From assembly GCF_016863015.1 (NCBI RefSeq), contig NZ_BOOB01000009.1, positions 62,001 through 126,000 of the forward strand: DNA of 64,000 bases, given 5' to 3'. Position numbers and translations under genes: made by a program. This document shows, piece by piece, positions 25,772 through 40,336 of this stretch. Origin of the DNA: Microbispora amethystogenes (GTDB taxonomy: Bacteria; Actinomycetota; Actinomycetes; Streptosporangiales; Streptosporangiaceae). Each line of letters starts with the position of its first letter. Within the stretch, counting starts at the first letter, position 1. Under the pieces are notes generated by a model, which was not told where the DNA came from, made no database searches, and saw nothing but the letters and a program-made list of their open reading frames with translations.

Positions 25772-25819
25772 CATGCGCCTCTGCGCGCGCGGTGACCGGT
25801 GGCGAGAGAGGGAGGATCG

Positions 25820-26938
25820 GTGACCCCATCCGGCAGGCCACGCCGGGCGACGCTCCCGGACGTGGCGGCGCTGGCCGGCGTCTCCACGGCCGCCGCCGGG
25901 CGCGCGCTGGGAGGGTACGGAAGCGTCAGCGAGGACGTGCGGCGGCGGGTGGCGGAGGCGGCGCGGCAGCTCGACTACCGCGCCAACCGCCTCGCCGCCA
26001 GCGTCCGCACCGGCCGGACCGACACCATCGGGGTCGTGTGCGCCGACATCGAGAGCCCCTTCTTCGCCCGCGCGCTGCGGGGGATCTCCGACGTCGCGCG
26101 CGAGAAGGGCTTCAGCACCCTCGTCACCAACAGCGACGAGGACCTCGCCAGCGAGCGTGAGGCGGTCCAGCTGCTCCTGCACAAGCAGGTGGACGGGATC
26201 ATCTGCGCGCCCGCCGACGTCACGCGGGTCGACCATCTGGCCCGGGCGCAGAGCGACGGCACACCCGTCGTCCTGTTCGACCGCGTGAGCGACCGCCTGG
26301 AGGCCGACGCCGTCGTCGTGGACGGCATGAAGGCCGCCTACCAGGCCGTACGGCGCCTGCTCGACCTCGGTCACCGGCGCGTCGCGATCGTCACGGAGCT
26401 GCGCCAGCCGCGGGAGCAGGACTGGGCGCGGCTGCTCGACCCGGAGATCGCGGCGTCGCCGGGCGAGCTCAGCCCGAGCGAGGCCCGGCTCCTCGGCTAT
26501 CTCCGGGCCCACTGGGACGCCGGGGTGCCGGTGCGCCGCGAACTGGTGCGGCGCACCGGCACCTACGCCGCCGACGCGGCCTACCAGCAGACGCGGCGGG
26601 TCCTCGCGCTCAAGAACCCGCCGACGGCGATCTTCACCGTGGACAACCTGATGACGGTCGGCGCCTACCGCGCGATCCGCGAGCTGGGCATCGCCGTGCC
26701 CGACCGGCTCTCGGTGGTGGCGTTCGACGACCTGGACTGGACCGTGCTGGTCTCCCCGGCGCTGACCGTCATCGCGCAGCCCGTCTACGAGATGGGCGCG
26801 GAGGCCGCCCGGCGGTTGATCCGGCGCCTGCGTGACCCGCAGCCGGAGCCGCCCGCCACTCTGTTCATGGACGTCGCCCTGATCGAGCGGGAGTCCGTAG
26901 CCCCGGTCGGCGGACAGACCCCCGCGACGCCGCGGTGA
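25820..26938 (+). CDS. LacI-family transcriptional repressor
   Basis: 372 aa. The helix-turn-helix and hinge (TLPDVAALAGVSTAAAGRALGGYGSVSEDVRRRVAEAARQLDYRAN) are followed by a periplasmic-binding-protein-like effector domain (TDTIGVVCADIESPFFARALRGI ... AVPDRLSVVAFDDLDW). The hinge helix has AASVRTGRT. GTG 25820 has GGGAGG 5 nt upstream (25810-25815). It probably binds the GAGAAC-GTTCTC sites before the SIS gene and is co-transcribed with that gene. Confidence 0.92.
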   Translation: MTPSGRPRRATLPDVAALAGVSTAAAGRALGGYGSVSEDVRRRVAEAARQLDYRANRLAASVRTGRTDTIGVVCADIESPFFARALRGISDVAREKGFSTLVTNSDEDLASEREAVQLLLHKQVDGIICAPADVTRVDHLARAQSDGTPVVLFDRVSDRLEADAVVVDGMKAAYQAVRRLLDLGHRRVAIVTELRQPREQDWARLLDPEIAASPGELSPSEARLLGYLRAHWDAGVPVRRELVRRTGTYAADAAYQQTRRVLALKNPPTAIFTVDNLMTVGAYRAIRELGIAVPDRLSVVAFDDLDWTVLVSPALTVIAQPVYEMGAEAARRLIRRLRDPQPEPPATLFMDVALIERESVAPVGGQTPATPR

Positions 26939-26983
26939 CGGACGTCCGGTCCGGAGCCGCCACGGGCTGCGATCGGCCCGCCG

Positions 26984-27943
26984 TCACCCAGTAGGGCTGG
27001 GGGACGGCCGGGGGCCGCCGGCGCAGCCCGGCCGCAGGGGAGCGGGGTGCTCGGCCCAGCGCAGCTCGCAGCCCACCGTGACGACCGGATACCAGCGGCG
27101 CAGCGCCCCACCGGGCTCCAGCGCGCCGGCCAGCGCCTCCAGCATCGCGACGTACGACGGCCAGCCCATCGGGCCGTCGTACGCCAGCCTCTCCCGCCGC
27201 GAGGCCTCACCCACGCGGCCCGTACGCGGCTCGACGAACAGGTTCCGGCCGCGGCTGTCGCTGCCGACGGCCAGGAGGCTGCCGTGCCATTTTCCGTGCT
27301 CGGGGTCGGCGCCCTCCCGATCCCCCCACAGCACTAGGGGGAGGCAGCGGCCGCTGTTGACCTGGTCGATGTCGTACAGGCCGAGCAGGCCGTACGACAT
27401 GGGGAGCTGGAAGCCCGACCCGAGGTTGCCGTCGGCGCCGTTGTGCCGCAGGTAAGAGGCGTACAGGTCGTCGGGCAGGCGGCGGCCTCGCGTGGCCTCC
27501 CAGCGGGCGAGGTCCTGCGGGCCGGTGCCGAACTCGAGCCGGCGCAGCGTGGCCGAGGCGTGCGCGCCCAGCCACCGCTCGATCCGGTCCCACGCCTGGT
27601 TCACCCGCGTGGCGACCGCCTGACCGGGCGCGCGCAGGGGGTACGTGGGCGGGTCGCCCGTGGAGACCTGTTGCTGTGCCTCACGCTCAAGCGCGGCCAG
27701 GTCGTGGTCGTCCTCCCACAGGACCGGCGGGCAGCCGATGGCCTTCGCCTCATCCGGGGTGAGCGCGTGTGCCTTGATCCTCGCTTCGAGCCCGGGGTCG
27801 CCGCAGGACAGCGACAGCAGGCCACCGTAGGAGACGAAGCACCTCACGGACCCACCGGCATCCGGCTCACCCACGGCTCCCGCGATCAGGAGCGCGACCG
27901 CGAGCGCCGGCCCCGCGACGCGTGTCCACCGGGATGCGATCAC
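26984..27943 (-). CDS. Exported SMI1/KNR4 (SUKH)-domain protein
   Basis: 319 aa. An N-terminal signal peptide (VAGPALAVALLIAGAVG) leads a Cys-containing segment (CFVSYGGLLSLSCGD). The second half is an SMI1/KNR4 fold: LEFGTGPQDLARWEATRGRRLPDDLYASYLRHNGADG, then LPMSYGLLGLYDIDQV and NLFVEPRTGRVGE. SUKH proteins are usually cytosolic immunity proteins against polymorphic toxins, so the export signal is unusual. No toxin gene is next to it. It is divergent from the DUF2332 gene. Confidence 0.75.
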   Translation of the reverse strand: MIASRWTRVAGPALAVALLIAGAVGEPDAGGSVRCFVSYGGLLSLSCGDPGLEARIKAHALTPDEAKAIGCPPVLWEDDHDLAALEREAQQQVSTGDPPTYPLRAPGQAVATRVNQAWDRIERWLGAHASATLRRLEFGTGPQDLARWEATRGRRLPDDLYASYLRHNGADGNLGSGFQLPMSYGLLGLYDIDQVNSGRCLPLVLWGDREGADPEHGKWHGSLLAVGSDSRGRNLFVEPRTGRVGEASRRERLAYDGPMGWPSYVAMLEALAGALEPGGALRRWYPVVTVGCELRWAEHPAPLRPGCAGGPRPSPSPTG

Positions 27944-28043
27944 CCGCGCACCTTATCGATCTTGCGCCCCGCCATACCGGGAAATTCGCATATATGTGCG
28001 GTCGGTCGTGCCACGCGGTGATCCGGGTTGATTTGATGAGGAC

Positions 28044-29027
28044 ATGGAGACGGCGGAGTGGTACCGGTTCTTCGCGGAGCGCGAGGCCAGGGGACACAGC
28101 CCGGTCTACGAGGCGCTGGGCCTCGCCGTCGCCGCCGACCCCGGGCTGCTCGAACTGATCGACGGCCTGCCGGAGCCGAAGCGGCAGCCCAACCTGCTGC
28201 TCGCCGCGGTGCGCTTCATCGGCGGGCCGTACGACGACTTCGGCCGCTTCCGCGCCTGGACCGTACGGCACTGGGACCGGGTGCGGGAGACCGTGCTCGC
28301 CCGGCGGACGCAGACCAACGAGACGGGCCGGTGCGCGAGCCTGCTGCCCGTGCTGGCGGCGCTGCCGCGGCCGCTGGCCCTGATCGAGGTGGGCGCGTCG
28401 GCGGGGCTGTGCCTCTACCCGGACCGCTACCGCTACCGGTACGACGACCCCGCCGGCCGTGGGCGGGAGATCGGACCGGCCGCGAGCCCGGTCCTGCTCA
28501 CCTGCCGGACGAACGGCAGGGTGCCGGTGCCGGACCACCCGCCGGAGATCGTGTGGCGGGCTGGGATCGACCTCGACCCCGTCGACGTACGCGACGACGA
28601 GGCCGTGCGCTGGCTGGAGTGCCTGGTCTGGCCGGGACAGGACGACCGGCTGGCGCGGCTGCGCGGGGCGGTGCGGATGGCGAGGGCCGACCCGCCGCGC
28701 CTGGTGCGCGGGGACGCCTCCGCCGCCCTGCCCGGCCTCGTCGCCGCCGCGCCCGCCGGGACGACGGTCGTCGTCTTCCACAGCGCGGTGATGCCGTACC
28801 TGGACGCCGGCGCGCGGAACCGGTTCGTGGCACTGGTCCGCGGCCTGCGGGCCCACGACATGCCGGTGCGGTGGATCTCCAACGAGGGCGCGCCCCGGCT
28901 GCCCTTGGTGCTCGCGGGGCTGACGACCGGCCTGCCGGAGGGCCGGCTGACGTTCCTGACCGCGCTCGACGGCCGCCCGCTCGCCATGACCGGCCCGCAC
29001 GGCGAGTGGCTGGACTGGCTCGCCTGA
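28044..29027 (+). CDS. DUF2332 family protein
   Basis: 327 aa, matching the DUF2332 pattern: EWYRFFAEREARGHSPVYEALG at the N-terminus, the Gly-rich ALIEVGASAGLCLYPDRY (a Rossmann/methyltransferase-like turn), and TTVVVFHSAVMPYL near the middle. The family is restricted mainly to actinobacteria and proteobacteria and has no proven function. A SAM-methyltransferase gene follows 36 bp downstream, so the two are probably co-transcribed. Confidence 0.85.
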   Translation: METAEWYRFFAEREARGHSPVYEALGLAVAADPGLLELIDGLPEPKRQPNLLLAAVRFIGGPYDDFGRFRAWTVRHWDRVRETVLARRTQTNETGRCASLLPVLAALPRPLALIEVGASAGLCLYPDRYRYRYDDPAGRGREIGPAASPVLLTCRTNGRVPVPDHPPEIVWRAGIDLDPVDVRDDEAVRWLECLVWPGQDDRLARLRGAVRMARADPPRLVRGDASAALPGLVAAAPAGTTVVVFHSAVMPYLDAGARNRFVALVRGLRAHDMPVRWISNEGAPRLPLVLAGLTTGLPEGRLTFLTALDGRPLAMTGPHGEWLDWLA

Positions 29028-29063
29028 CCGAGGGCCGGCACCGGGGATGCCGATACTGGGATC

Positions 29064-29804
29064 ATGACGCTTTACGACGAGATCGGCACGACGTACAGCG
29101 CGGTCCGCCGGCCGGACCCGAGGGTGGCGGCCCGGATCACCGCCGCGATCGGGGACGCCGCCACGGTCGTCAACGTGGGGGCGGGCGCGGGGTCGTACGA
29201 GCCGCCGTGGACCCTGCTCGCGGTCGAGCCGAGCGCGGTGATGATCGCGCAGCGGCCGCCGGGGGCGGCCCCCGTGGTGCGGGCCCGGGCCGAGGCCCTG
29301 CCCCTCGCCGACGGCGTGGCCGACGCCGCGATGGCGATCCTGACCGTGCACCACTGGTCGGACCTCGCGGCCGGGATCGCCGAGATGCGCCGGGTCGCGC
29401 GGCGCCGGGTGGTGATCCTCACCTGGGACCAGGAGGTCACCAGGGACTACTGGTTCCTCGCCGAATATCTGCCCGAGGGCGCGGCGCTGGACGAGGGCCG
29501 CGCCCCCTCGCTCGCCGATCTCGGCCGGATGCTCGGCGGCGCCAGGGTGGAGGCCGTGCCGATCCCGCACGACTGCGCCGACGGGTTCGGCGCCGCCTAC
29601 TGGCGCCGCCCGGAGGTCTATCTCGACCCCGTCGCCCAGTCGGGCATGTCCGTGATCACCCAGCTCGGCCCGGAGGTCGTACGGCCGGCCCTCGACCGGC
29701 TCGCGGCCGACCTGGAGTCGGGCCGCTGGCACGAGTTGCACCGCGACCTGCTCGGCCTGGAGGAGTACGACGCCGGCTACCGGCTGCTCGTCGCGGACCT
29801 GTGA
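29064..29804 (+). CDS. Class I SAM-dependent methyltransferase
   Basis: 246 aa. Short form of the class I fold with motif I TVVNVGAGAGSYEPP, acidic motif II LLAVEPS, and MAILTVHHWSDLAAGIAEMRRVARRRVVILTWD, the pattern of Methyltransf_11-type enzymes. The substrate is unknown. Its stop lies in a 12-bp tandem duplication (29795-29818). It converges on the NRPS gene, so it could tailor that product, but its co-direction with DUF2332 argues for an independent unit. Confidence 0.87.
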   Translation: MTLYDEIGTTYSAVRRPDPRVAARITAAIGDAATVVNVGAGAGSYEPPWTLLAVEPSAVMIAQRPPGAAPVVRARAEALPLADGVADAAMAILTVHHWSDLAAGIAEMRRVARRRVVILTWDQEVTRDYWFLAEYLPEGAALDEGRAPSLADLGRMLGGARVEAVPIPHDCADGFGAAYWRRPEVYLDPVAQSGMSVITQLGPEVVRPALDRLAADLESGRWHELHRDLLGLEEYDAGYRLLVADL

Positions 29805-29867: not shown

Positions 29868-32800
29868 TCAGGCCTTGACCTTGACCGCCTCGACCGCTTC
29901 GACGGCCTGCGGCGCCTCGCCGCGGCTGCGCAGCGTCTTCAGGCCGACCAGGTCGTCGGCCTCGGCGTCCGGGGTCTCCTCGTCGAACCGCGCCAGCGCC
30001 GGGTGACGAAGGGCGATCGTGATCGTGAGGGCGATGGCCAGCCCGCAGACCACGTACAGCAGGCCGATCCCGCGCCCCTCGCCGACTCCGAGGACCTTGC
30101 CGACCGAGCCGGCCAGCGCGCCGCCCGGCCGCATCAGCGGCTCGAAGACCAGCCCCACCAGCCAGGCCTGTACGGCCAGCCCGACCGGCTGGGTCGACAG
30201 CGCGAGCATCCGGTTGATCGAGATGACGCGGGCGTGGTAGCGCTGCGGCACCTTCGAGTGGATGATCGTCAGCCAGATGCTGTCGCTGATCGTCATCATC
30301 AGCGACATGCCGAACGCGCCGAGCGTGATCAGGATGAGCGACGGCCGCAGACCGGCGATGGCGCAGAAGATGCCGAGCACTCCGGCGGCCGCCAGCATGC
30401 CGAACATCCGGCGGTCGCGCGGGCCGCCCCACAGCGTGATGATCAGGCCGCCGCAGACCGCCCCGATGCCCGCGAGCACCGCGACCCGCCCGGTGTCGGC
30501 CAGCTCGCCGACCGACAGCACCAGCGGCGGGATCATGATGAACCCGGTGAACAGGAAGAAGTTCACGATGAACATCGTGAAGGCCATCGCCCGCAGGCCC
30601 CGCCGCCGGAGCAGGTAGCGGAAGCCGTTGCGGATCTCGGCGGAGACGGTCTCCCGGCGCCGCCAGGCCATCGTGGCGGGGAAGCGGACCAGCAGCGTCA
30701 CCGTGAACGCGACCGCGTAGCACACCACGTTGGCCGTGAGGATGCCCTCGATGCCGATCAGCGCCAGTACGGCGACGGAGAAGAGCGGCACCATCAGCTG
30801 GGCCACGGCGTTGCCGAGCTGGACGACCCCGCCGACGTGGTGCAGGTAGGCCTTGGGCGCCAGTTGCGGGCCGGCCGACTGCCAGGCCACCCGTTGCAGG
30901 GTCACCGACAGCGAGAGCAGCACCAGCAGGGCGTAGAGCAGCGGCATGTTCAGGGAGTCGGAGACCATCAGCGCGAGCAGCCCGGCCTGAACGCCGAGCG
31001 ACATCCCGTCGGCCACCAGCATCGCCCGTTTGCGGTCGTACCGGTCGACCAGCGCGCCGATCAGCGGCGCGAGGATCAGCCCCGGCACCAACCCGACGAT
31101 GGCGAACAGGCCGAACTGCACCAGCGAGCCGCTCTTCAGGTACGCCCAGATCGGCACGGCGAACTCGGTCATCACCGCGCCGATCATGGAGACGATCTGG
31201 CCCGTCGCCACCGTGAAGAACCGGCCGAGGCTGGGCTGCGGCCCGTCCGTGTCGGCCTTCCGGTCGGACGAGACGGCCTCCCGCCACCAGGTGGCAGTGT
31301 CGCCGGGCGCCGGGACGTGCCACTCCTCGGGACGGTCCACGGAGGTGTGCGCGGTGGTGACGATCGCGGCCAGCTCCTCGGTGCGGTACCGGAGGAAGTA
31401 GTGCCCGGCCTCGGCCATCACCACCAGCGCGGTGGTCTCGGAGACGCAGTGCCAGTCGCGGTAGCGCTCCTCGTAGAAGTCGGTCAGCGCGTCGCGGTCG
31501 CCCACGATGGAGATCACCGGGGCGCGCAGCTGCGGGCTCTGCTGCTCGACCAGCTCGCTGAAGTAGTCCTCACCGGCCCGCGCGTCCACCCGCATCGTGC
31601 TGATGATGTGGTCGACCTGCTCGGGGTCGAGGTCCTGCAGGTCGGCGCCCATCGCGCGCAGCCAGTTGGCGTGCGCGTTGGCGTTGTCCAGCGCCTTGCT
31701 GCGGAAGATCCGGCCGAGCAGGCCGTTCAGGCCCTTCGTGGGGGTGGCGAACGGGAAGCTGCCGCCCGTGTAGACGGCCTCGACGCGCCGGCCCGCCGCC
31801 TCCAGCCTCCGGGCGATCTCGGCGGTGAGCGCGCTGCCGACGCAGTGGCCGTAGAGCGCGACCGGGCCGCGCACGCGCTCGACGACCTCGTCGCAGACCC
31901 GCTGGGCGGCCTCGTGGAACGGGATCGTGCTCTCCTCGACCCCGAGCTCGTGGCCCGGCAGGGCGACCGAGAACAGCGAGTGCCCGGCCGGCAGCGCGTC
32001 GGCCAGCGGCTGGTAGACCATCGCGCTGGCCCCGCCGTACGGGATGCAGACCAGTGACAGCGTCGGCGTCTTCACCGGCCGGGTCAGCTCGACCAGCAGG
32101 CCGCGCGCGCCCTCGTCCGCGGCGCCCTCCGGGGCGCCGTTGGCCCTGTCGATCAGCGCGGCCAGGTCCCGTACGGTGCGGTTGGCGATCGCGTCGAGCA
32201 CGGTCACCTGGTAGCCGTCGGAGGGCAGCGCCTGGCGCAGCTTGGCGACCATGCGGATGAGCAGCAGCGAGTGGCCGCCCAGCGCGTTGAAGTCGCTGTC
32301 GATCGAGATCGCCTCGATGCCGAGGACCTCCCGCCAGACCCCGGCCACCACGATCTCGGTCTCGGTCTCCGGCTCCGCCAGGTCCTCGGTCGCCCGGACG
32401 ACCGGGTCGGGCAGCGCCTTGCGGTCCACCTTGCCGTTGGCGTTGAGCGGGATGCTCTCCAGCGGCACGAACATCGACGGGACCATGTACTCCGGCAGCC
32501 GCGCCGCGCAGTGCTCCGCCAAATCACGGGACGCCGGTTCCGCGGGCTCCCGAGCCTCGGGCACGTAGTAGGCGACGAGCCGCTTGTCCTCGGGCGTGAA
32601 CGCGTGCACGACGACGACCGCGTCGCGTACGCCCAGGTGGTCGAGCACCGCCGCCCTGACCTCGTCCAGCTCGATGCGGTAGCCGCGGATCTTGACCTGG
32701 TCGTCGAAGCGGCCGAGGAAGACCACGTTCCCGTCGCGGGCCCAGGCCACGCGGTCGCCGGTGCGGTACATCCGCCCGCCCGGCACGAACGGATCGGCCA

Positions 32801-35402
32801 GGAACCGCTCCTCGGTGAGGTCGGGCCGGTTCAGGTAGCCGCGGGTGACGCCCACGCCGCCGACGTAGAGCTCGCCCGGCACGCCGACCGGCTGCAGCCG
32901 CCGGTTCGCGTCGAGGACGTACATCCGCATGTTGGGCAGCGGACGGCCGATCGGCACGACCTCCACGAGCTGGGCGTCGCGCACCGGGTAGATGCACGTG
33001 CCGACCGACGCCTCGGTGGGGCCGTACTCGTTGACGAGCCGCCCCGGGCCGAGCATCTCCATCCAGCGGTTGGCCATCGACCCGGGCAGCGCCTCGCCCG
33101 CCACGACGATCACGCCGGCGAGCGCCTCGGCCTGCCGGGCGTCGATCTGGTGACCGAGCACCTCCAGGTGTCCGGGGGTGCACTTGATGAAGCTGTACGG
33201 CCCGCCCGCGACGAGCAGCGCGCCCAGCTCACCCATGTCGAAGTCCTGCTCCAGCACCGTGACCCGCTGCCCGGTGACGAGCGGCGCCCAGAGGTTCGGG
33301 ACCACCAGGTCGAAGGCCACCGAGCCGAACAGCGGCGCTCCGCCGTCGCCCTGGCTCGCCAGGTCCTCCACGGCCCACCACACGTGGTTCACCAGGCCGC
33401 GGTGGGTGACCTGCACGCCCTTCGGCTTCCCGGTCGACCCCGAGGTGAAGATCACGTACGCCAGCCGGTCGATGTCGTACGGCACGCCCACCGGCTCGGC
33501 GGGCCGGCCGTCGAGCACGCCGCTCCCCACGTCGACCACGTCGACCGGGTCGTCCGGCACGCCGACGCCGTCGAACAGGTGCGCGTACCCCGCTGAGGTC
33601 AGGACCAGCGGGGTCGCGGCGATCGACAGCATGTCCGAGACGCGCTGCGCGGGAAACTTGGGATCCATCGGCAGGTAGGCCGCGCCGGCCTTCCACACGC
33701 CGAGCAGGCAGGCGATCAGCTCCGGGCTCCGGTCGAGCAGCACGCCCACCGTGTCCTCGGGCCCGATGCCCCGCTCGCGCAGCAGGTGCGCGACCTGGTT
33801 GGCGCGGGCGTGCAGCTCGGCGTACGTCGTGGTGCGGCCCTCGAACGCGACCGCGACCGCGTCGGAGTCCGCGTGCCGCTCCAGCAGTTCGGGCAGGGCC
33901 ACGTCCGGGTACGGCCGGGCCGAGTCGTTCCAGGCGTCCAGCGCGAGGTCGCGTTCGGCGTCGGTCAGCAGGTCCAGGTCGGCGAGCGGGGTGTCCGGGG
34001 CGGCGGCGATCCGCTCGGCCAGCGCGCGGTAGTGCCCGGCGAGCCGGGCGACCGCGTCCGCGTCGAACCGGTCCTTCTGGTAGGTCAGGTAGAGCTCGGG
34101 GTCGCCGCCGCCGTTCAGGTGCACCAGCAGCGCGAGGTCGTAGGTGAAGTCGTCGACCTCGTGCGCCCAGACCGACGCCTCCAGCCCGGGCCAGCGCCCG
34201 CGCTGGTCGCGGAAGACCCGCAGCGAGAAGCCCACCGTCGACAGCGAGAAGTTGCGGGCGTCCCGGTCGCGCAGCGCCCCCGCCAGCTCGGAGAACGGCA
34301 GGTGGTTGGTGAGCGCCTCGCCGAGCCGCCGCCGCACCCCCGCCGCGGCCTCGCGGAACGAGGGGTTGCCCGACAGGTCGGCGCGCAGCGGCAGGGCGTT
34401 GACGAAGCAGCCGAGCACGGGCTCCAGCTCCACCCGGCGGCGCCCGCCGTCGACCGTGGCGATCGTCAGGTCGTCCTGCCCGGTGTAGCGCGCCAGCGCC
34501 ATCGAGAAGACCGTGAGCAGGGCCACGAACGGCGTGGTCCCGGGGCCGCCCGCCTCCCGCAGCGCCCGCAGGACATCCTCCGGCAGCGTGAACAGGTGGC
34601 AGTCGCTCCGCCTGCCCTCGGGAACGGGCTGGTCGTTCCTGGCGATCGGCAGTTCGACCGAGGCGGCGCCGTCGAGCCGGTCGCGCCAGTACGCGAGCCG
34701 CCGCTCCCGCCGCTCGCCGGTCAGCTCACGCCGCGACCAGGCCGCGTAGTCGGCGTACTGGAGCGGGGGAGGGGTGACCCCGGCGGGGCGGCCCTCGTGG
34801 GCGGCGGCGTACACGGTGGTGAGCTCGTCCACGATGATGCCGACCGACCACCCGTCACAGGCGATGTGGTGGCAGACGAACATCAGCACGTGGTCCTCGT
34901 CGCCCAGCCGGACCAGCGTCGTACGGTGGACCGGCCCGGTCTCCAGGTCGAAGCGCTCGACCGCGGCCCGGGACGTGAGCTCCCGGGCCCGCTCCTCCCG
35001 TTCGGACTCGGGCAGGTCGCGCAGGTCGACGACGTCGAGAGGCGCGGGCCCGGGGTCAAGGATGACCTGCCGGGGCTCGGGCCCGTCGCCCTCGTAGACC
35101 GTGCGCAGGATCTCGTGGCGTTCGACCAGGGTGTCCAGGGCGACGGTCAGCGCCCGGACGTCGAGCGGGCCGGTGAGCCGCAGGCCGATCGTGGCGTTCG
35201 GCGCCGGAGCGCCTTCGGCGAAACGGGCGCCGAGCCACATCTGGGCCTGCTCGTAGGAGCAGGGGGCGGGCCCCGCGCCGCGCGGGGTGATCGCGTCCGC
35301 GGCGGCCGCCCGGGCGGCGAGCAGCCGGCGCAGCGCCTCCTGCCTGCGTGGGGAAAGCGACGCTATTAGATGCTCGTTGTCAGTCGTCGGCGTTATCGTC
35401 AC
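29868..35402 (-). CDS. NRPS/MFS fusion: C-A-PCP-TE-MFS, TE with Cys nucleophile
   Basis: 1844-aa single protein. Condensation domain about 45-480 with intact HHIACDG (H178-H179...D183). Adenylation domain about 500-985: FTSGSTGKPKG, NEYGPTEAS, YRTGDRVAW, NANGKVDRKAL. PCP with GGHSLLLI (Ser1045). Thioesterase about 1100-1340 with YGHCVGS (Cys1187), VGDRDALTD and AGHYF (His1334). From about 1395 there is a 12-helix MFS exporter. Hand-aligning the A-domain pocket gives D-L-P-K-V-A-E-V-G-K, closest to the Asn and then the Asp codes. GTG 35402 is chosen for GAGGAG 8 nt upstream; a longer frame to 35552 would cross the palindromic operator. No MbtH-like gene is in view. The single elongation-type module needs an acyl donor, probably the glyceryl-PCP protein encoded divergently. 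Confidence 0.93.
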   Translation of the reverse strand: MTITPTTDNEHLIASLSPRRQEALRRLLAARAAAADAITPRGAGPAPCSYEQAQMWLGARFAEGAPAPNATIGLRLTGPLDVRALTVALDTLVERHEILRTVYEGDGPEPRQVILDPGPAPLDVVDLRDLPESEREERARELTSRAAVERFDLETGPVHRTTLVRLGDEDHVLMFVCHHIACDGWSVGIIVDELTTVYAAAHEGRPAGVTPPPLQYADYAAWSRRELTGERRERRLAYWRDRLDGAASVELPIARNDQPVPEGRRSDCHLFTLPEDVLRALREAGGPGTTPFVALLTVFSMALARYTGQDDLTIATVDGGRRRVELEPVLGCFVNALPLRADLSGNPSFREAAAGVRRRLGEALTNHLPFSELAGALRDRDARNFSLSTVGFSLRVFRDQRGRWPGLEASVWAHEVDDFTYDLALLVHLNGGGDPELYLTYQKDRFDADAVARLAGHYRALAERIAAAPDTPLADLDLLTDAERDLALDAWNDSARPYPDVALPELLERHADSDAVAVAFEGRTTTYAELHARANQVAHLLRERGIGPEDTVGVLLDRSPELIACLLGVWKAGAAYLPMDPKFPAQRVSDMLSIAATPLVLTSAGYAHLFDGVGVPDDPVDVVDVGSGVLDGRPAEPVGVPYDIDRLAYVIFTSGSTGKPKGVQVTHRGLVNHVWWAVEDLASQGDGGAPLFGSVAFDLVVPNLWAPLVTGQRVTVLEQDFDMGELGALLVAGGPYSFIKCTPGHLEVLGHQIDARQAEALAGVIVVAGEALPGSMANRWMEMLGPGRLVNEYGPTEASVGTCIYPVRDAQLVEVVPIGRPLPNMRMYVLDANRRLQPVGVPGELYVGGVGVTRGYLNRPDLTEERFLADPFVPGGRMYRTGDRVAWARDGNVVFLGRFDDQVKIRGYRIELDEVRAAVLDHLGVRDAVVVVHAFTPEDKRLVAYYVPEAREPAEPASRDLAEHCAARLPEYMVPSMFVPLESIPLNANGKVDRKALPDPVVRATEDLAEPETETEIVVAGVWREVLGIEAISIDSDFNALGGHSLLLIRMVAKLRQALPSDGYQVTVLDAIANRTVRDLAALIDRANGAPEGAADEGARGLLVELTRPVKTPTLSLVCIPYGGASAMVYQPLADALPAGHSLFSVALPGHELGVEESTIPFHEAAQRVCDEVVERVRGPVALYGHCVGSALTAEIARRLEAAGRRVEAVYTGGSFPFATPTKGLNGLLGRIFRSKALDNANAHANWLRAMGADLQDLDPEQVDHIISTMRVDARAGEDYFSELVEQQSPQLRAPVISIVGDRDALTDFYEERYRDWHCVSETTALVVMAEAGHYFLRYRTEELAAIVTTAHTSVDRPEEWHVPAPGDTATWWREAVSSDRKADTDGPQPSLGRFFTVATGQIVSMIGAVMTEFAVPIWAYLKSGSLVQFGLFAIVGLVPGLILAPLIGALVDRYDRKRAMLVADGMSLGVQAGLLALMVSDSLNMPLLYALLVLLSLSVTLQRVAWQSAGPQLAPKAYLHHVGGVVQLGNAVAQLMVPLFSVAVLALIGIEGILTANVVCYAVAFTVTLLVRFPATMAWRRRETVSAEIRNGFRYLLRRRGLRAMAFTMFIVNFFLFTGFIMIPPLVLSVGELADTGRVAVLAGIGAVCGGLIITLWGGPRDRRMFGMLAAAGVLGIFCAIAGLRPSLILITLGAFGMSLMMTISDSIWLTIIHSKVPQRYHARVISINRMLALSTQPVGLAVQAWLVGLVFEPLMRPGGALAGSVGKVLGVGEGRGIGLLYVVCGLAIALTITIALRHPALARFDEETPDAEADDLVGLKTLRSRGEAPQAVEAVEAVKVKA

Positions 35403-35417
35403 CGAGCGTTCTCCTCT

Positions 35418-35435
35418 CTGCGCACTAATGCGCAG
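35418..35435 (-). promoter_or_regulatory. Hairpin/palindrome in the NRPS leader
   Basis: CTGCGCA-CTAA-TGCGCAG, perfect 7-bp arms, immediately upstream of the NRPS ribosome site. It could be an operator or a leader hairpin that affects translation. Confidence 0.5.
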
Positions 35436-35537
35436 GCGCCAACTGACCAGACGGAAAAGTGGTTGATCGAGAAACGCTTGAACGTTGAATTCCGCAGGGG
35501 TCGCCGCGTATCTCGCCGCTTTCGGCGACGGGACGCA

Positions 35538-35551
35538 TGGGAGCGCTCCCA
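35538..35551. promoter_or_regulatory. CelR/CebR-type operator TGGGAGCGCTCCCA
   Basis: A perfect 14-bp palindrome identical to the CelR site known from Thermobifida fusca cellulase genes and to the core of Streptomyces CebR boxes. It lies 136 bp upstream of the NRPS start and about 350 bp upstream of the divergent dioxygenase gene. No celR/cebR gene is in the window. Confidence 0.85.
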
Positions 35552-35902
35552 CGAAAGGATTATTACGATACGTGATACACCCTGGTAACGCAAGCCTTAC
35601 ATTGACCTGCCCTCAGCCACATTCGGTAAGAGGAAATCGACCTTCCGTGATCAAGCGCAGACGAGGGAAGGTTCGGCCGCACAGGCATTGCCGGGTGTTA
35701 CAGCAAGGTGTCGAATCGGCTGACTGACGTGGTCGGAGAAGGGGTGGAACTTGTTTCTTGCGCGGCACCCTATCCGGGTTCTATGTTGGCCGCCGGAATG
35801 AATTTCCGCAGGGGCGCCGCCTATTCGAGGGCCCGCCTGCCTCCTCAATTCGACTCGTCGTCGTGGCCGAATACGGCCGGATATCGCTCAGCAGGAGGAC
35901 GC
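35552..35902. promoter_or_regulatory. Divergent intergenic region of the NRPS locus
   Basis: About 350 bp, markedly less GC-rich than its surroundings, with no gene of its own. TTGCGC (35758) and TATGTT (35782) with 18-bp spacing is a possible promoter for the dioxygenase operon. AGGAGG at 35893-35898 is the ribosome site of the dioxygenase. Confidence 0.5.
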
Positions 35903-36826
35903 ATGAACGACGGCTGGACGCCCCTGGAGATAACCCCGGACGGCCCCGCCACTCCGGAAGGACTGGTCGAGCGCCTGCGCGGGCTCGACGTGGGCGATCT
36001 GCTCGTACGGGAGAAGGCCCTCGTCTTCCGGGGGTTCGGCGTCACGCCCGAGACGCTGGACCCGGTCATGGACATGCTCCTGCCCAACCGGCTGGCGTAC
36101 GTCCACGGCAACTCGCCCCGCACCAAGGTCGGCGGCAACGTCTACACCTCCACCGAGTACCCGCCCGAGTACACGATCTCGATGCACAACGAGCTGTCGT
36201 ACTCCGCCGCCTGGCCCTCCCGGCTGCTGTTCTTCTGCGAGAAGGCGGCCGAGACCGGCGGGGCCACCCCGGTGGTGGACGGCGTGCGCTGGCTGGAGTC
36301 GCTCGACGACGAGGTCAGGGAGGCCTTCGCCAAGGGTGTGCGCTACACCCAGAACCTGCACGCCGGCCGGGGGCTCGGCAAGAGCTGGCAGGAGACGTTC
36401 GAGACCGAGGACCGCGACCAGGTGGCCGAGTTCCTCGACGGCATCGGGGCCGACTGGCAGTGGCGGCCCGACGGCGGCGTGCGGGTCTCGCAGATCAGGC
36501 CGTCCACCACCCGGCACCCGGTGACCGGGGCCGAGGTGTGGTTCAACCAGGCCGACCAGTGGCACCCCGCCTCGCTCGGCGACGAGACCGCCGCGATGCT
36601 CGCCGAGCTCATGCCGCCGGAGGAGCTGCCGCAGTCCGTGACGTTCCCGGACGGCGCGCCGATCCCCGGCGACTACGTCATCCAGGCGCGCGACCGCGGC
36701 CTGGACAACGCGGTGGACGTCGACTGGCGGAGCGGCGACCTGCTGCTGATCGACAACGTGCTCGTCGGTCACGGCCGCCGGCCCTTCACCGGCTCCCGCC
36801 GCGTCCTCGTCGCGATGTCCGACTGA
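35903..36826 (+). CDS. TauD/TfdA-type Fe(II)/2-oxoglutarate dioxygenase (SyrP/AsnO-like)
   Basis: 307 aa. Iron ligands: H95-x-E97 in MHNELSYSAAWP and the distal His at H290 in VGHGRRPFTG, with the 2-oxoglutarate-binding Arg in GRRPFTGSRR. The run NVYTSTEYPPEYTISMHNELSY and FCEKAAETGGATPVVDGVRW is characteristic of the SyrP-like beta-hydroxylases acting on carrier-bound Asp or Asn in NRPS pathways. This fits the Asn/Asp-like pocket of the divergent NRPS. ATG 35903 follows AGGAGG by 4 nt. First gene of the rightward arm of the locus. Confidence 0.88.
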   Translation: MNDGWTPLEITPDGPATPEGLVERLRGLDVGDLLVREKALVFRGFGVTPETLDPVMDMLLPNRLAYVHGNSPRTKVGGNVYTSTEYPPEYTISMHNELSYSAAWPSRLLFFCEKAAETGGATPVVDGVRWLESLDDEVREAFAKGVRYTQNLHAGRGLGKSWQETFETEDRDQVAEFLDGIGADWQWRPDGGVRVSQIRPSTTRHPVTGAEVWFNQADQWHPASLGDETAAMLAELMPPEELPQSVTFPDGAPIPGDYVIQARDRGLDNAVDVDWRSGDLLLIDNVLVGHGRRPFTGSRRVLVAMSD

Positions 36827-36842
36827 GCATGTCCGACTGAGC
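36815..36842. repeat. 14-bp exact tandem duplication over a stop codon
   Basis: ATGTCCGACTGAGC twice (36815-36828, 36829-36842). The dioxygenase ends MSD-stop in the first copy. The spacer up to the next gene holds further degenerate CCGACTGA-like units. Confidence 0.95.
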
Positions 36843-36929
36843 GCACGCCCGACCGCAAGCACGCAAGCCTCGCCCGACTGAACGCCGTCTCCGACTTCCA
36901 AGCCGTCTCCGGCTGAAAGGGGATCCGCA

Positions 36930-39056
36930 GTGAGCAAGATCGCTTTGGGGGTCGCCGCGACCTTCACCGCCGAGCCGCTCGGGGACGCCCTGAGATTCTG
37001 GCTCGCCGAGCTGGGGACCGAGGGGGACGTCGCCTTCGCTCCGTACGACCAGGTCTTCCCCTCGCTGCTCGACCCGGGCAGCGTGCTCGGCCGGGCCGGC
37101 GCCGTGGTCGTCCTCGTCCGCGCCGAAGACCTCGCCGGGAACGTCACGGCCGGTGCCGCCGACAAGGATACGGCCGCTCTCGACGCCGCCGCGGACGACC
37201 TCGCCACCGCGCTCCGGACGTCGGCGGCCGCGGCGGGCACCCCCCATCTCGTCGCCGTCTGCCCCGCCTCGCCCGGGCACGGCTCGCCCGAAGCCCATGC
37301 GCGCCTGACCGGCGGGCTGGTCGAGGCGCTGAAGGACGACCGGTCGGTCGGCGTGCTCACCTCCGCCGAGCCGTACGAGCCGGCGGACCCGGAGGCCGTC
37401 CACGACGCGTTCGCCGACCGGACCGGCAACGTCCCGTACACCGACCACTACTTCGCCGCGCTCGCCGCGGCGGTCGTACGCCGCCTCCAGGCCGTGACCA
37501 CCCCGCGTCCCAAGGTCGTCGTCGCCGACTGCGACGGCACGCTGTGGGACGGCGTGGTCGGCGAGGACGGCCCGGACGGCGTCGTGATCGGCCCCGAGCG
37601 CGAGGAGATCTGGCGCGAGCTGGCCCGGCAGGTCGCGGCGGGGCGGCTGCTGTGCCTGTGCAGCAAGAACGAGGAGAAGGACGTCCGCGAGGTCTTCGCC
37701 CGGCATCCCGGGCTGCCGTTCGGCCTGGACGACGTCACGGCGATGCGCGTCGGCTGGGAGGCCAAGTCGCAGGCCCTGCGCTCGCTGGCCGACGAGCTGA
37801 ACCTCGGGCTCGACTCCTTCGTCTTCCTCGACGACAGCCCGGTCGAGTGCGCCGAGGTCCGGGCCGGTTGCCCCGAGGTGCTGACCCTTCAGATGCCAAC
37901 CGCCGCCGCGGACGCGGCGGCGTTCCTGCGGCACTGCTGGCCGCTCGACCTCGCCGCCGTCACCGATGCCGACCGCGAGCGCACCCGGCGCTACCAGGAG
38001 GAACGGCGGCGCGAGCAGGCCAGGGGCGAGATGTCCCTCGCCGACTTCTACGCCACGCTCGACCTGCGGGTGACGATCACCCCGGCGGGCCCCGAGCACG
38101 AGGCGCGGGCGGCCCAGCTCGCCGAGCGGACCAACCAGTTCAACCTGTCGGGGACGCGGCGCCTGGACGGCGACGAGACGTTCGTCGTGGACGTGCGCGA
38201 CCGGTTCGGCGACTACGGCGTCGTCGGCCTCACCGACGTGCGGACGGACGGGGACACGCTGCGCGCCGGCGCGTTCCTGCTGAGCTGCCGCACCCTCGGG
38301 CGCGGGGTCGAGCATCGCATGCTCGCCCACCTGGGCGCGCTCGCGCGCGACCGCGGGCTGGCCCGGGTCGCGCTGGCGTTCCGGCCGACCGAGCGCAACC
38401 AGCCCGCCAGGGACTTCCTGGCCACCCTGCCCGCCACCATCGAGCCGTACGGCGAGGAGGCGGCGGAGACGGCGTGGCACGTCCTCACCGCCGCCGACGC
38501 CGCGGCCGTCGTCCACTCACCCGCCCACACACCCGTCCACTCATCGGGCCCTGCTGAGGAGAGGGCAGCGGGGCCCGCCCGGATCGGTTCGGCGGCCGCG
38601 CCCGCCGGATGGGCGGCCGTCGAGCGGATCGCGACCCGGCTCACCGGCCCCGAGGCGATCCTGGACGCGATGCGGGCCGCCCGCCCGGCGACAGCGGTGG
38701 CCGCCGAGGTGGCCGGGGCGACCCCCGTCGAGGCGACCGTCATGCGGTGGTGGGCGGAGCTGCTCGACAAGCCGCCCACCTCGGTGAACGACGGGTTCTT
38801 CGAGCTGGGCGGCCACTCGCTGCGGCTGGTGCAGTTCATGGCGCGGGTGCGTGCCGAGTTCGGGGTCGAGCTGCCCTTCGACACCCTCTACACCACCTCG
38901 TTCACCATCGCCGAGGTCGCCAAGGTGATCGAGGAGCGGCAGCTCGCCGAGACCGGCGACGAGGAGCTGGCCGGGCTGCTCGACGAGCTCGCGGGCCTGT
39001 CGGACGAGGAGATCGACGCCCTGCTCGAATCAGGGCTCGAATCAGGGAACGGCTGA
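36930..39056 (+). CDS. FkbH-like glyceryl-loading HAD-IIIC enzyme fused to a carrier domain
   Basis: 708 aa. Residues about 1-190 are the FkbH N-terminal region. The HAD phosphatase core has VVVADCDGTLWDGVVGE (DxDGT near residue 199), CLCSKNEEKDV and FVFLDDSPVECAEV. A GNAT-like acyl-transfer region follows (about 370-530: ERTNQFNLSGTRRL ... LSCRTLGRGVEHRML). The C-terminus is a PCP/ACP with FELGGHSLRLVQ (Ser near 630). FkbH proteins take 1,3-bisphosphoglycerate and load a glyceryl thioester on a carrier protein; here the carrier is built in. This supplies the likely donor for the NRPS C domain. Starts GTG 36930 after AAAGGGGA. Confidence 0.9.
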   Translation: MSKIALGVAATFTAEPLGDALRFWLAELGTEGDVAFAPYDQVFPSLLDPGSVLGRAGAVVVLVRAEDLAGNVTAGAADKDTAALDAAADDLATALRTSAAAAGTPHLVAVCPASPGHGSPEAHARLTGGLVEALKDDRSVGVLTSAEPYEPADPEAVHDAFADRTGNVPYTDHYFAALAAAVVRRLQAVTTPRPKVVVADCDGTLWDGVVGEDGPDGVVIGPEREEIWRELARQVAAGRLLCLCSKNEEKDVREVFARHPGLPFGLDDVTAMRVGWEAKSQALRSLADELNLGLDSFVFLDDSPVECAEVRAGCPEVLTLQMPTAAADAAAFLRHCWPLDLAAVTDADRERTRRYQEERRREQARGEMSLADFYATLDLRVTITPAGPEHEARAAQLAERTNQFNLSGTRRLDGDETFVVDVRDRFGDYGVVGLTDVRTDGDTLRAGAFLLSCRTLGRGVEHRMLAHLGALARDRGLARVALAFRPTERNQPARDFLATLPATIEPYGEEAAETAWHVLTAADAAAVVHSPAHTPVHSSGPAEERAAGPARIGSAAAPAGWAAVERIATRLTGPEAILDAMRAARPATAVAAEVAGATPVEATVMRWWAELLDKPPTSVNDGFFELGGHSLRLVQFMARVRAEFGVELPFDTLYTTSFTIAEVAKVIEERQLAETGDEELAGLLDELAGLSDEEIDALLESGLESGNG
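39024..39047. repeat. 12-bp exact tandem duplication just before a stop codon
   Basis: CTCGAATCAGGG twice, coding LES-G LES-G, three codons before the stop of the FkbH-PCP gene. Confidence 0.92.
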
Positions 39057-39061
39057 TCCGC

Positions 39062-40336
39062 ATGGCCACGATGCTGCTGAGCACCCACGGCACGAACGGC
39101 GACGTGCTCCCGTTCATACGGATCGGGCGCGAGCTGGCGGAGCGCGGCCACGAGGTCACCGTGCTCACGCACTCCTGGTTCGCCGACCGGATAGCGGCCG
39201 CGGGCCTGCGGCACCTCCCGATCGACACCGACGAGGGCTACGACCGGCACCTTGACGACGCGCGGCGCTACATGCTCGACCCGCTGAAGGACCCGGACGG
39301 CGTGCTCCGGCTCTACCGGCGCAACGGCCTGTTCGAGCTGCTGGCCGAGGAGGTGCGCATGATCGAGGCGCACTACCGGCCGGGGGAGACGGTGGTGGTG
39401 GCCCGGCACACCTCGGGCATCGCCGCGCTGATGGCCGCCGAGATGCACGGGGTCCCCGTGGCGCTGGCGTCCGTCACACCCCACCAGTACGTCTCGCTGC
39501 CGGTCCTCGCCGACCTCTTCCGGCGCGTGCTCGGGGAGGGGTACGACGAGGTCTACCGGTCGTTCGGCCTGCGCCCGGTCCGCGACTGGGCCGCCTACCT
39601 CAACAACGCCCCGGTGCAGCTGGTGCTGTGGCCGGAGTGGTTCGACGCCGCGGGCCAGCGGGCGCCCGCGAACGCCGTGCGCTGCGGGTTCGTGCTCGGC
39701 GACACGGCGGAGGGGCCGGTCCCCGACTGGGCCGAGCCCCCCGTCCTGATCACCGGAGGCACCGGCCAGGTGCTGCACGACCGGTTCTACGAGGTGGCGG
39801 CCGCCGCGTGCCAGAGGATCGGCAGGCGGGCCCTGCTGGTGAACCGGCACCCGGCGTTCCAGCCCGAGTCGCTGCCCGACGGGGTGGAGTGGCTGCCCTC
39901 GGCGCCGTTCGCCTCGTTCATGCCTCGTGTCGCCGCGGTCGTCCACCATGGCGGGATCGGCACGCTCGCCCGGGCGCTGTCGTCGTCGACCCGGCAGGTG
40001 CTGCTCGCCCACGGCGTCGACCGTCCCGACAACGCCGAGCGGCTCGACCGCGCGGGCGTCGCGGAATGGCTCCCCGTGTCCCACTGGGACGAGGAACGGG
40101 CCGCCGCGCTGCTCGCCCGCACCCTCGCCGACGACGGGTACCACGAGCGGATCGCCCCGCTCGCCGCCGACGCCGCCTCGGAGGACGGCGTACGGATCGC
40201 CGCCGACCACGCCGAGGCTTTGATCGGCGCCGACGAGATCCTGCGGCGGCCGGTCCCGCGCGAGAGACTGGCCCGGCTCACCCCGGAGCAGAAGGTGCGC
40301 CTGGCCGCCCTGGCCCGCGCCCGCAGGGGCGGCTGA
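39062..40336 (+). CDS. GT1-family glycosyltransferase (antibiotic type)
   Basis: 424 aa of GT-B fold. N-terminal acceptor domain begins with the family pattern MLLSTHGTNGDVLPFIRIGRELAERGHEV. The C-terminal donor domain contains VAAVVHHGGIGTLARALSSSTRQVLLAHGVDRPDNAERL, the HHGG and D-N nucleotide-sugar site of erythromycin/vancomycin-type transferases. Begins 5 bp after the FkbH-PCP stop, so it is in the same operon and probably glycosylates the NRPS product. The C-terminal tail LTPEQKVRLAALARARR is unlike usual GT1 ends and resembles the linker in front of NRPS condensation domains. Confidence 0.9.
   Translation: MATMLLSTHGTNGDVLPFIRIGRELAERGHEVTVLTHSWFADRIAAAGLRHLPIDTDEGYDRHLDDARRYMLDPLKDPDGVLRLYRRNGLFELLAEEVRMIEAHYRPGETVVVARHTSGIAALMAAEMHGVPVALASVTPHQYVSLPVLADLFRRVLGEGYDEVYRSFGLRPVRDWAAYLNNAPVQLVLWPEWFDAAGQRAPANAVRCGFVLGDTAEGPVPDWAEPPVLITGGTGQVLHDRFYEVAAAACQRIGRRALLVNRHPAFQPESLPDGVEWLPSAPFASFMPRVAAVVHHGGIGTLARALSSSTRQVLLAHGVDRPDNAERLDRAGVAEWLPVSHWDEERAAALLARTLADDGYHERIAPLAADAASEDGVRIAADHAEALIGADEILRRPVPRERLARLTPEQKVRLAALARARRGG

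Follow-up and report, generated by a model that had tools for sequence, protein, structure and literature searches.

A predicted glyceryl-asparagine synthetase-exporter unit with an ObiF1-like cysteine thioesterase and a CebR box in Microbispora

The obafluorin synthetase ObiF (ObiF1), as presented in excerpts of its paper (PMC6668435), contains one condensation-adenylation-carrier-thioesterase (C-A-PCP-TE; PCP, peptidyl carrier protein) module of a nonribosomal peptide synthetase (NRPS), takes its acyl donor from a separate carrier, and needs its TE Cys for beta-lactone formation, a Cys-to-Ser mutant giving only the hydroxy acid. FkbH is the proposed glyceryl loader in excerpts on the vioprolide, cystomanamide, dysinosin and suomilide NRPSs (PMC8949500, PMC9581180, PMC6520454, PMC8609519), and CysJ of the cystobactamid pathway, called SyrP-like by its authors, hydroxylates carrier-bound Asn in the equivalent portion of its report (PMC7966384). 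Counterparts of these parts meet in a 64,000-nucleotide stretch of Microbispora amethystogenes (contig NZ_BOOB01000009.1, positions 62,001 to 126,000; hereafter the window), part of an 8.13-Mb genome in 167 contigs. There, an NRPS fused to a major facilitator superfamily (MFS) exporter is divergent from genes for a TauD-type oxygenase, an FkbH protein with its own carrier and a glycosyltransferase, and a box for the cellulose regulator CebR lies between them. The explanation we prefer for the whole, held tentatively and with somewhat less than even confidence, is a minimal glyceryl-Asn beta-lactone unit of the cellulose regulon. To our knowledge, very few NRPSs are known to have a thioesterase that forms a four-membered ring, and ObiF-like release joined to an FkbH donor, a fused exporter and a cellulose-regulon box would be a new combination in an NRPS cluster.

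The locus differs from each precedent in composition. ObiF shares the Cys TE, whose Asp sits at position II on a later strand and whose Gly occupies position I, as well as a carrier-bound beta-hydroxy residue, but it has an MbtH-like domain plus an additional A domain, receives a beta-hydroxy amino acid premade by a transaldolase, and is acylated with dihydroxybenzoate (excerpts of PMC6668435); here we find an Asn-type code, a SyrP-like hydroxylase and a predicted glyceryl donor. The two TEs are about 30% identical. ObiF is not known to carry an exporter. In the excerpts on the four FkbH pathways cited above, an FkbH domain and carrier likewise supply glycerate, and the cystomanamides also contain beta-hydroxy-Asn, two of them with a sugar; those lines, however, are multi-module with FkbH inside the synthetase, whereas here a separate protein with its own carrier faces a single amino acid module. 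CysJ likewise acts in trans on carrier-bound L-Asn, but its partner CysH has an aminomutase/dehydratase domain and passes Asn to an assembly line (excerpts of PMC7966384), whereas the carrier here leads into a TE and an exporter. A literature search limited to open-licence PMC text found nothing on an NRPS-MFS fusion or on this gene set; an original prediction, made from the letters of the window, knew of no characterised pathway with it.

Profile searches confirmed every domain named in that prediction: Condensation, AMP-binding, PP-binding, Thioesterase and MFS_1 in one frame, and TauD, FkbH with PP-binding, and a glycosyltransferase across the divide. Searching genomes for the arrangement returned the same order in 16 distinct genomes, so the four genes are no chance open reading frames or frame artefacts. 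What the prediction had overlooked is the Cys nucleophile of the TE and the palindrome at 35538-35551. The features are as follows.

29868..35402, minus strand: NRPS-exporter C-A-PCP-TE-MFS, 1844 amino acids; profile domains, collinear in 16 distinct genomes
29868-35552, minus strand: longest NRPS frame; C 100-535, A 562-1041, PCP 1069-1134, TE 1167-1398, MFS 1449-1783
33948..35255, minus strand: condensation domain; HHxxxDG beginning at 34871
32430..33869, minus strand: adenylation domain (AMP-binding and C-terminal part); code DLPKVAEVGK, Asn-like
32151..32348, minus strand: PCP carrier domain of the NRPS; Ser codon 32268-32270
31359..32054, minus strand: thioesterase; Cys 31842-31844, Asp 31491-31493, His 31401-31403; ObiF1-like triad
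30204..31208, minus strand: MFS exporter domain; MFS_1, best NCBIfam TIGR00900, below its cut-off
35538..35551, no strand: CebR/CelR box TGGGAGCGCTCCCA, 14-bp palindrome; upstream of both starts, by about 136 bp (NRPS) and 352 bp (TauD)
35903..36826, plus strand: TauD/SyrP-like Fe(II)/2-oxoglutarate oxygenase, 307 amino acids; HxE...H (H95, E97, H290)
36930..39056, plus strand: FkbH-type protein with own carrier, 708 amino acids; N-terminal domain, FkbH 37509-38429, PCP 38739-38927
39062..40336, plus strand: glycosyltransferase, macrolide/EryCIII-like (MGT-like), 424 amino acids; profile match

Likely starts are GTG at 35402 for the NRPS and ATG at 35903 and 39062 for TauD and the glycosyltransferase, chosen because of lengths and conservation across genomes, plus Shine-Dalgarno-like sequences for NRPS and TauD; the divergent region is therefore 35403-35902.

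The TE resembles ObiF1 at its catalytic positions. Its nucleophile is Cys, in a YGHCVG motif that aligns with YGHCAG of ObiF1, and phmmer against solved structures placed ObiF1 first (1.3e-27), followed by 6vap (9e-19), 8w2c (1.2e-12) and RifR. Cys, Asp and His align with ObiF1 chain residues 1166, 1274 and 1304, which a constant offset of 20 converts to C1146, D1254 and H1284 in the numbering of the ObiF1 paper, and the second Gly of YTGGSF aligns with ObiF1 Gly1173, the diagnostic Gly at position I. We take 8w2c to be SulM from its Gln-Cys-Asn, its structure record saying only NRPS; our TE has His-Cys-Val in place of that motif. To set the TE among its relatives, we sampled 75 rows (74 distinct) of the C-A-PCP-TE-MFS family, 23 (22 distinct) from clusters of the present type and of a sister type and 52 others chosen among the matches listed. 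GHCVG occurs in all 23 rows whose A code begins DLPK. The SulM paper, in the portion at hand, ties the triad layout to beta-lactam/lactone closure, groups SulM and ObiF1 together with type-II thioesterases in its tree, and lists AB3403, a Cys TE with another Asp position, as uncharacterised. For our TE, with the contrary cases below taken into account, we put beta-lactone closure at about an even chance.

Asn is the likely residue on the NRPS carrier. The code DLPKVAEVGK is invariant in all 23 DLPK rows (22 distinct), and it resembles the Asn code DLTKLGEVGK, whose Lys278 and Glu322 it keeps. The oxygenase matches PF02668 with 113.8 bits, occurs in all 16 FkbH-type genomes, and has H95, E97 and H290, presumably the iron ligands, invariant in 15 aligned sequences. 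Its relatives at 66-71% lie beside A domains coded DLPKVAEVGK (L146, L147, L148) or DLPKVGEVGK (L145), four loci in one genus of the class of which L147 and L148 come from one genome, and relatives at 38-43% lie beside DLTKLGEVGK or DLTKVGEVGK in L096, L111 and L115 (L094 was partly read); this company lends Asn support that is in part independent of the code of the cluster itself. No full A domain was present at L144, L151 or L153. Asn is favoured over Asp because Lys278 and Glu322 are kept and TauD relatives accompany DLPKVAEVGK, DLPKVGEVGK and DLTKxGEVGK; the Asn/Asp-type residue of the original prediction has sequence support as a class and narrows towards Asn. Hydroxylation of the carrier-bound residue at its beta carbon by TauD, also foreseen there, has sequence support and is a step we would expect with good confidence. 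L145-L148 each carry two TauD genes close together with a DLPKVxEVGK A domain.

The FkbH protein has the makings of a glyceryl donor. It exceeds the TIGR01686 cut-off (263.9 versus 146.65 bits), a PP-binding domain follows, and the HAD motif DCDGTLW, the Cys of LSCRxLGRGVE (residue 453) and the carrier Ser are kept in all 16 distinct genomes. The same Cys, which we take to be the glyceryl-carrying residue, also occurs in two distant loci, L026 and L030. These encode FkbH-PCP proteins, 31-37% identical, in Pirellulaceae and Nitrospirales metagenome-assembled genomes. Glyceryl loading on the FkbH carrier, as originally predicted, has support from the sequence and appears highly likely.

A CebR box marks the divergent promoter. 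TGGGAGCGCTCCCA is identical in 11 of 11 aligned divergent regions, the rest of which is barely alignable in the Planobispora row, and the window holds one match at up to one mismatch, with 0.03 expected. It accompanies all 22 distinct clusters of the present and sister types (21 fetched plus the window), and in the 21 fetched clusters the distance from box to 5' end of the NRPS match is at most 122 bp. A script rule of 0-900 bp upstream counted 16 of 21; in the other five the BLAST match overruns the box (distance -1 to -14). Among rows with other codes it is found in 6 of 17 DFTK and 1 of 3 DTED, and in none of 25 DVWH, 2 DVRN, 2 DFLK or 3 DLYN.

The genome-wide company of the box includes cellulase genes. 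The M. amethystogenes genome holds 15 exact sites, with 0 for the reversed control. By Pfam, seven lie at sugar-polymer or sugar-uptake genes: GH6-CBM2; GH48-CBM2 then GH9; GH9-CBM2; aldose epimerase/GH1; two before one sugar-binding protein; and one at a family-8 polysaccharide lyase. Two precede NRPSs, that of the studied cluster and one on contig C49. The remaining six are found in front of GGDEF/EAL and HATPase genes, 0.8 kb past a CtaA gene, within a single long frame, and twice on C27, where one site immediately precedes a further LacI-family match. In sequence the box equals the CebR site of the literature: excerpts of PMC4898821 report, by another method, 18 and 19 sites for S. scabiei and S. 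acidiscabies, the thaxtomin promoter among them, a number similar to our 15 exact ones. In that regulon, as predicted here, a single sensor of cello-oligosaccharides governs cellulases together with a specialised-metabolite locus, but its metabolite genes are unrelated and it belongs to another genus; CebR binding at our sites is a prediction. CebR control of the unit, predicted from the box, is very probable. A CebR-like LacI gene 90% identical to the sister-cluster LacI lies on C49 at 93435-94466 near sugar-uptake genes, its match flagged with one TAG; with that relative on another contig, we rejected the LacI gene at 25799 of the window as CebR.

Taken together, these parts suggest an ordered pathway. 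In response to cello-oligosaccharides, a CebR-type repressor would leave its box at 35538-35551, and the divergent genes would be expressed. The FkbH protein would move the glyceryl of 1,3-bisphosphoglycerate onto its own C-terminal carrier, while the A domain would load Asn on the NRPS carrier and the TauD enzyme would hydroxylate the beta carbon of the bound Asn. The C domain would then join glyceryl to the amino group of the residue, the Cys TE would take the chain, and the beta-hydroxyl would close on the thioester to release an N-glyceryl-alpha-amino-beta-lactone, much as ObiF releases obafluorin. A sugar would come from the glycosyltransferase, probably at a glyceryl hydroxyl, and the fused MFS domain would export the product. 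The order of these steps is itself a prediction. An N-glyceryl beta-hydroxy-Asn beta-lactone is our best predicted product because an ObiF1-like Cys TE, an Asn-like A domain and a SyrP-like hydroxylase occur together. Export by the synthetase polypeptide itself was part of the original prediction and has sequence support.

The unit is conserved across Microbispora and reaches Planobispora. The 16 genomes with the four-gene order, the window included, comprise 14 of 15 Microbispora and 2 Planobispora, and their flanking genes vary more than the core. Of the 14 further Microbispora genomes searched, 13 have an FkbH relative of nearly full length (72-95%), and G014 has none. A scan of named genome contigs gave 21 loci (10 Microbispora, 2 Planobispora, 9 distant or partial). 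Five loci were dropped before counting, each from the genome of another: L038 (L018), L039 (L022), L040 (L014), L074 (L025) and L075 (L024). L071, a carrier match only, was left out of the FkbH rows.

A sister type of cluster has a free carrier in place of FkbH. Among the matches listed for 345 genomes of the order, it occurs in 11 more genomes (4 of one genus, 7 of another), with TE-MFS at 66-69%. In the six sister clusters read, the NRPS is 61-64% identical and the glycosyltransferase 45-46%, TauD (73-79%) is present in five, and none has FkbH beside the NRPS; a carrier 52-58% identical to the FkbH carrier tail stands in its place, as a 106-amino-acid gene in L069. Across whole genomes, TauD is present in 9 of 11. 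FkbH relatives at 32-38% lie in other loci of sister genomes G062, G064, G093 and G094. Since sister clusters have a free carrier and no FkbH, the acyl donor may be exchangeable, and the core looks like TauD plus NRPS. A second, GT4-type glycosyltransferase follows the free carrier in both loci examined, L066 (12823-14384) and L069 (12345-13882). The FkbH carrier (window 38739-39056) and the free sister carrier (L069 12345-12665) end in a common acidic tail, LSDEEIDALL and MSDDEINELL, which may serve the C domain as a docking helix.

The synthetase-exporter fusion belongs to a wider family. That a one-protein synthetase and exporter is special or unique to this locus we reject, as the same fusion is frequent in the family and often Ser-coded. 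Of the 75 sampled rows, 72 have Cys as the TE nucleophile and three have Ser; Asp and His are present in all 75, and position I is Gly in 52 and Ala in 23. Most of these proteins pair an exporter fusion with Cys, Asp and His at the ObiF1 positions. A codes are DVWH in 25 rows, DLPK in 23, DFTK in 17, DLYN and DTED in 3 each, and DVRN and DFLK in 2 each. We take DVWH to mean Ser and DLYN Cys, residues with a beta nucleophile, and DFTK to be Asp-like. The Ser-nucleophile rows L077, L112 and L114 are the DTED rows (DTEDxGTxIK); in the TE tree they form one clade beside two Ser-coded Cys rows, inside the Ser-code group, which makes the joint change of A code and nucleophile a single event. By tblastn (E up to 1e-4, fetched stretches of at most 20 kb), TauD relatives accompany 22 of 23 DLPK, 2 of 2 DFLK and 4 of 25 DVWH rows, and no DFTK, DVRN, DLYN or DTED row.

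The other Streptosporangiaceae fusions share domain order, 40-45% identity and a Cys TE in 49 of 52 rows, but 25 of 52 are Ser-coded. A multi-module NRPS precedes the fusion at L078 and L084, two of the three loci with neighbours scanned, and no FkbH was seen beside the 12 of 52 looked at (L072, L073, L076-L085). L101, L104 and L107 combine the presumed Cys-type code DLYNxSLIWK with a Cys TE and are candidate beta-thiolactone makers. M. amethystogenes carries a second member on C49 (L172:12677-18898), C-A-PCP-TE(Cys)-MFS with code DFTKLGHVGK, TE GHCG and its own CebR box. Its neighbours encode GH1, an aldose epimerase and an E1 dehydrogenase, with sugar ABC transporter genes and a CebR-like LacI further on. 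Genes for 2-oxoacid dehydrogenases (E1/E2) recur beside L077, L093, L095, L100, L101, L107, L119, L123, L130, L066 and L069, some of these loci also with GH1, and several may share a chromosomal neighbourhood.

How the chain leaves the TE decides between the readings. In one alternative, which we consider unlikely, the same assembly ends in hydrolysis by the Cys TE, giving an open-chain N-glyceryl-beta-hydroxyasparagine that is glycosylated and exported. The domains support the chain, and two sister genomes without TauD and the DFTK group without TauD nearby keep a Cys TE in the rows read, so Cys may not mean ring closure. Against hydrolysis, the catalytic positions match ObiF1, whose paper, in its available excerpts, contrasts them with EntF-type triads (PMC6668435). 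With an obafluorin-type Cys TE, a plain open-chain amide is less likely than a ring, and of the N-glyceryl amide originally predicted the chain has sequence support while its open form recedes. A different ring is less likely still: attack by a glyceryl hydroxyl (a six- or seven-membered depsipeptide), attack by the Asn amide (an aminosuccinimide), or several units joined as lactones. Those hydroxyls and that amide are chemically available, and the amide route would explain the two TauD-less sister genomes; yet Ser- and Cys-coded relatives with a similar TE offer only a beta nucleophile and no such amide, and excerpts of the ObiF1 and SulM papers tie the ObiF-type triad to four-membered rings. 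That glycerate and beta-hydroxyaspartate or beta-hydroxyasparagine serve as alpha-hydroxy-acid type ligands of an MFS-exported siderophore we find very improbable. SyrP-like TauD enzymes do hydroxylate carrier-bound Asp for cupriachelin, according to part of a review, but what we recognised upstream as a conserved operator is the CebR box, no iron-box search having been made, and the six neighbours scanned include no uptake genes.

Several observations weigh against the beta-lactone reading of the unit. TauD is absent genome-wide from G062 and G064 (2 of 11 sister genomes), and L070, from G062, keeps the A code and Cys TE without it. Each of the 17 DFTKxGHVGK and two DVRN members combines a Cys TE with a fetched stretch that holds no TauD relative, a systematic screen beside the DFTK rows for further kinds of hydroxylase not having been made; Cys is thus no proof of a beta-hydroxyl. 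The Cys-to-Ser change of nucleophile is one clade and one event, and ObiF1 and SulM are long branches of unsure placement in the TE tree. TauD is not strictly tied to an Asn-type code, since L149 (TauD 65%, 8.4-kb contig) shows DIWEVTAVTK and DAPITAAVAK, L150 (45%) Ser-type codes, and L152 (49%) DAFAVTGVGK. The residues assigned to the A codes are presumptive, and a literature search on six of these codes, the Asn one among them, found none. On the donor side, the sister clusters read keep the core without FkbH in cis, on which ground we rejected a requirement for it. In M. oryzae the CSKN Cys of FkbH has given way to Ser, and in both Planobispora to Ala; we discarded it as the essential thiol for its loss in these three genomes, and Cys453 is the better candidate.

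The cellulose switch in the promoter suggests a plain activation route, cellobiose or cellulose medium, and a link between a specialised metabolite and the breakdown of plant biomass in a genus other than the Streptomyces of the published case. A four-gene, single-residue pathway is small enough for in vitro rebuilding. A broader and more doubtful proposal is that the Streptosporangiaceae C-A-PCP-TE(Cys)-MFS proteins are an undescribed class of synthetase-exporters whose products are strained rings (Ser or beta-hydroxy-Asn giving beta-lactones, Cys giving beta-thiolactones), with the glyceryl-Asn and sister branch in the cellulose regulon. On that proposal, cells digesting cellulose would release a reactive small molecule, perhaps in the form of a glycoside that a beta-glucosidase from this regulon opens.

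The genes around the unit are less constant. MbtH is encoded three times in the genome and not on the contig of the cluster. DUF2332, methyltransferase, short-chain dehydrogenase/reductase and geranylgeranyl-reductase-like neighbours were rejected as members of the unit, as they move or are not found in some other loci. On the far side of the NRPS, 25799-29804 of the window encodes a LacI-family regulator, a SUKH-type gene, a DUF2332 gene and a methyltransferase, the last two of which lie near the NRPS in many, not all, Microbispora loci fetched.

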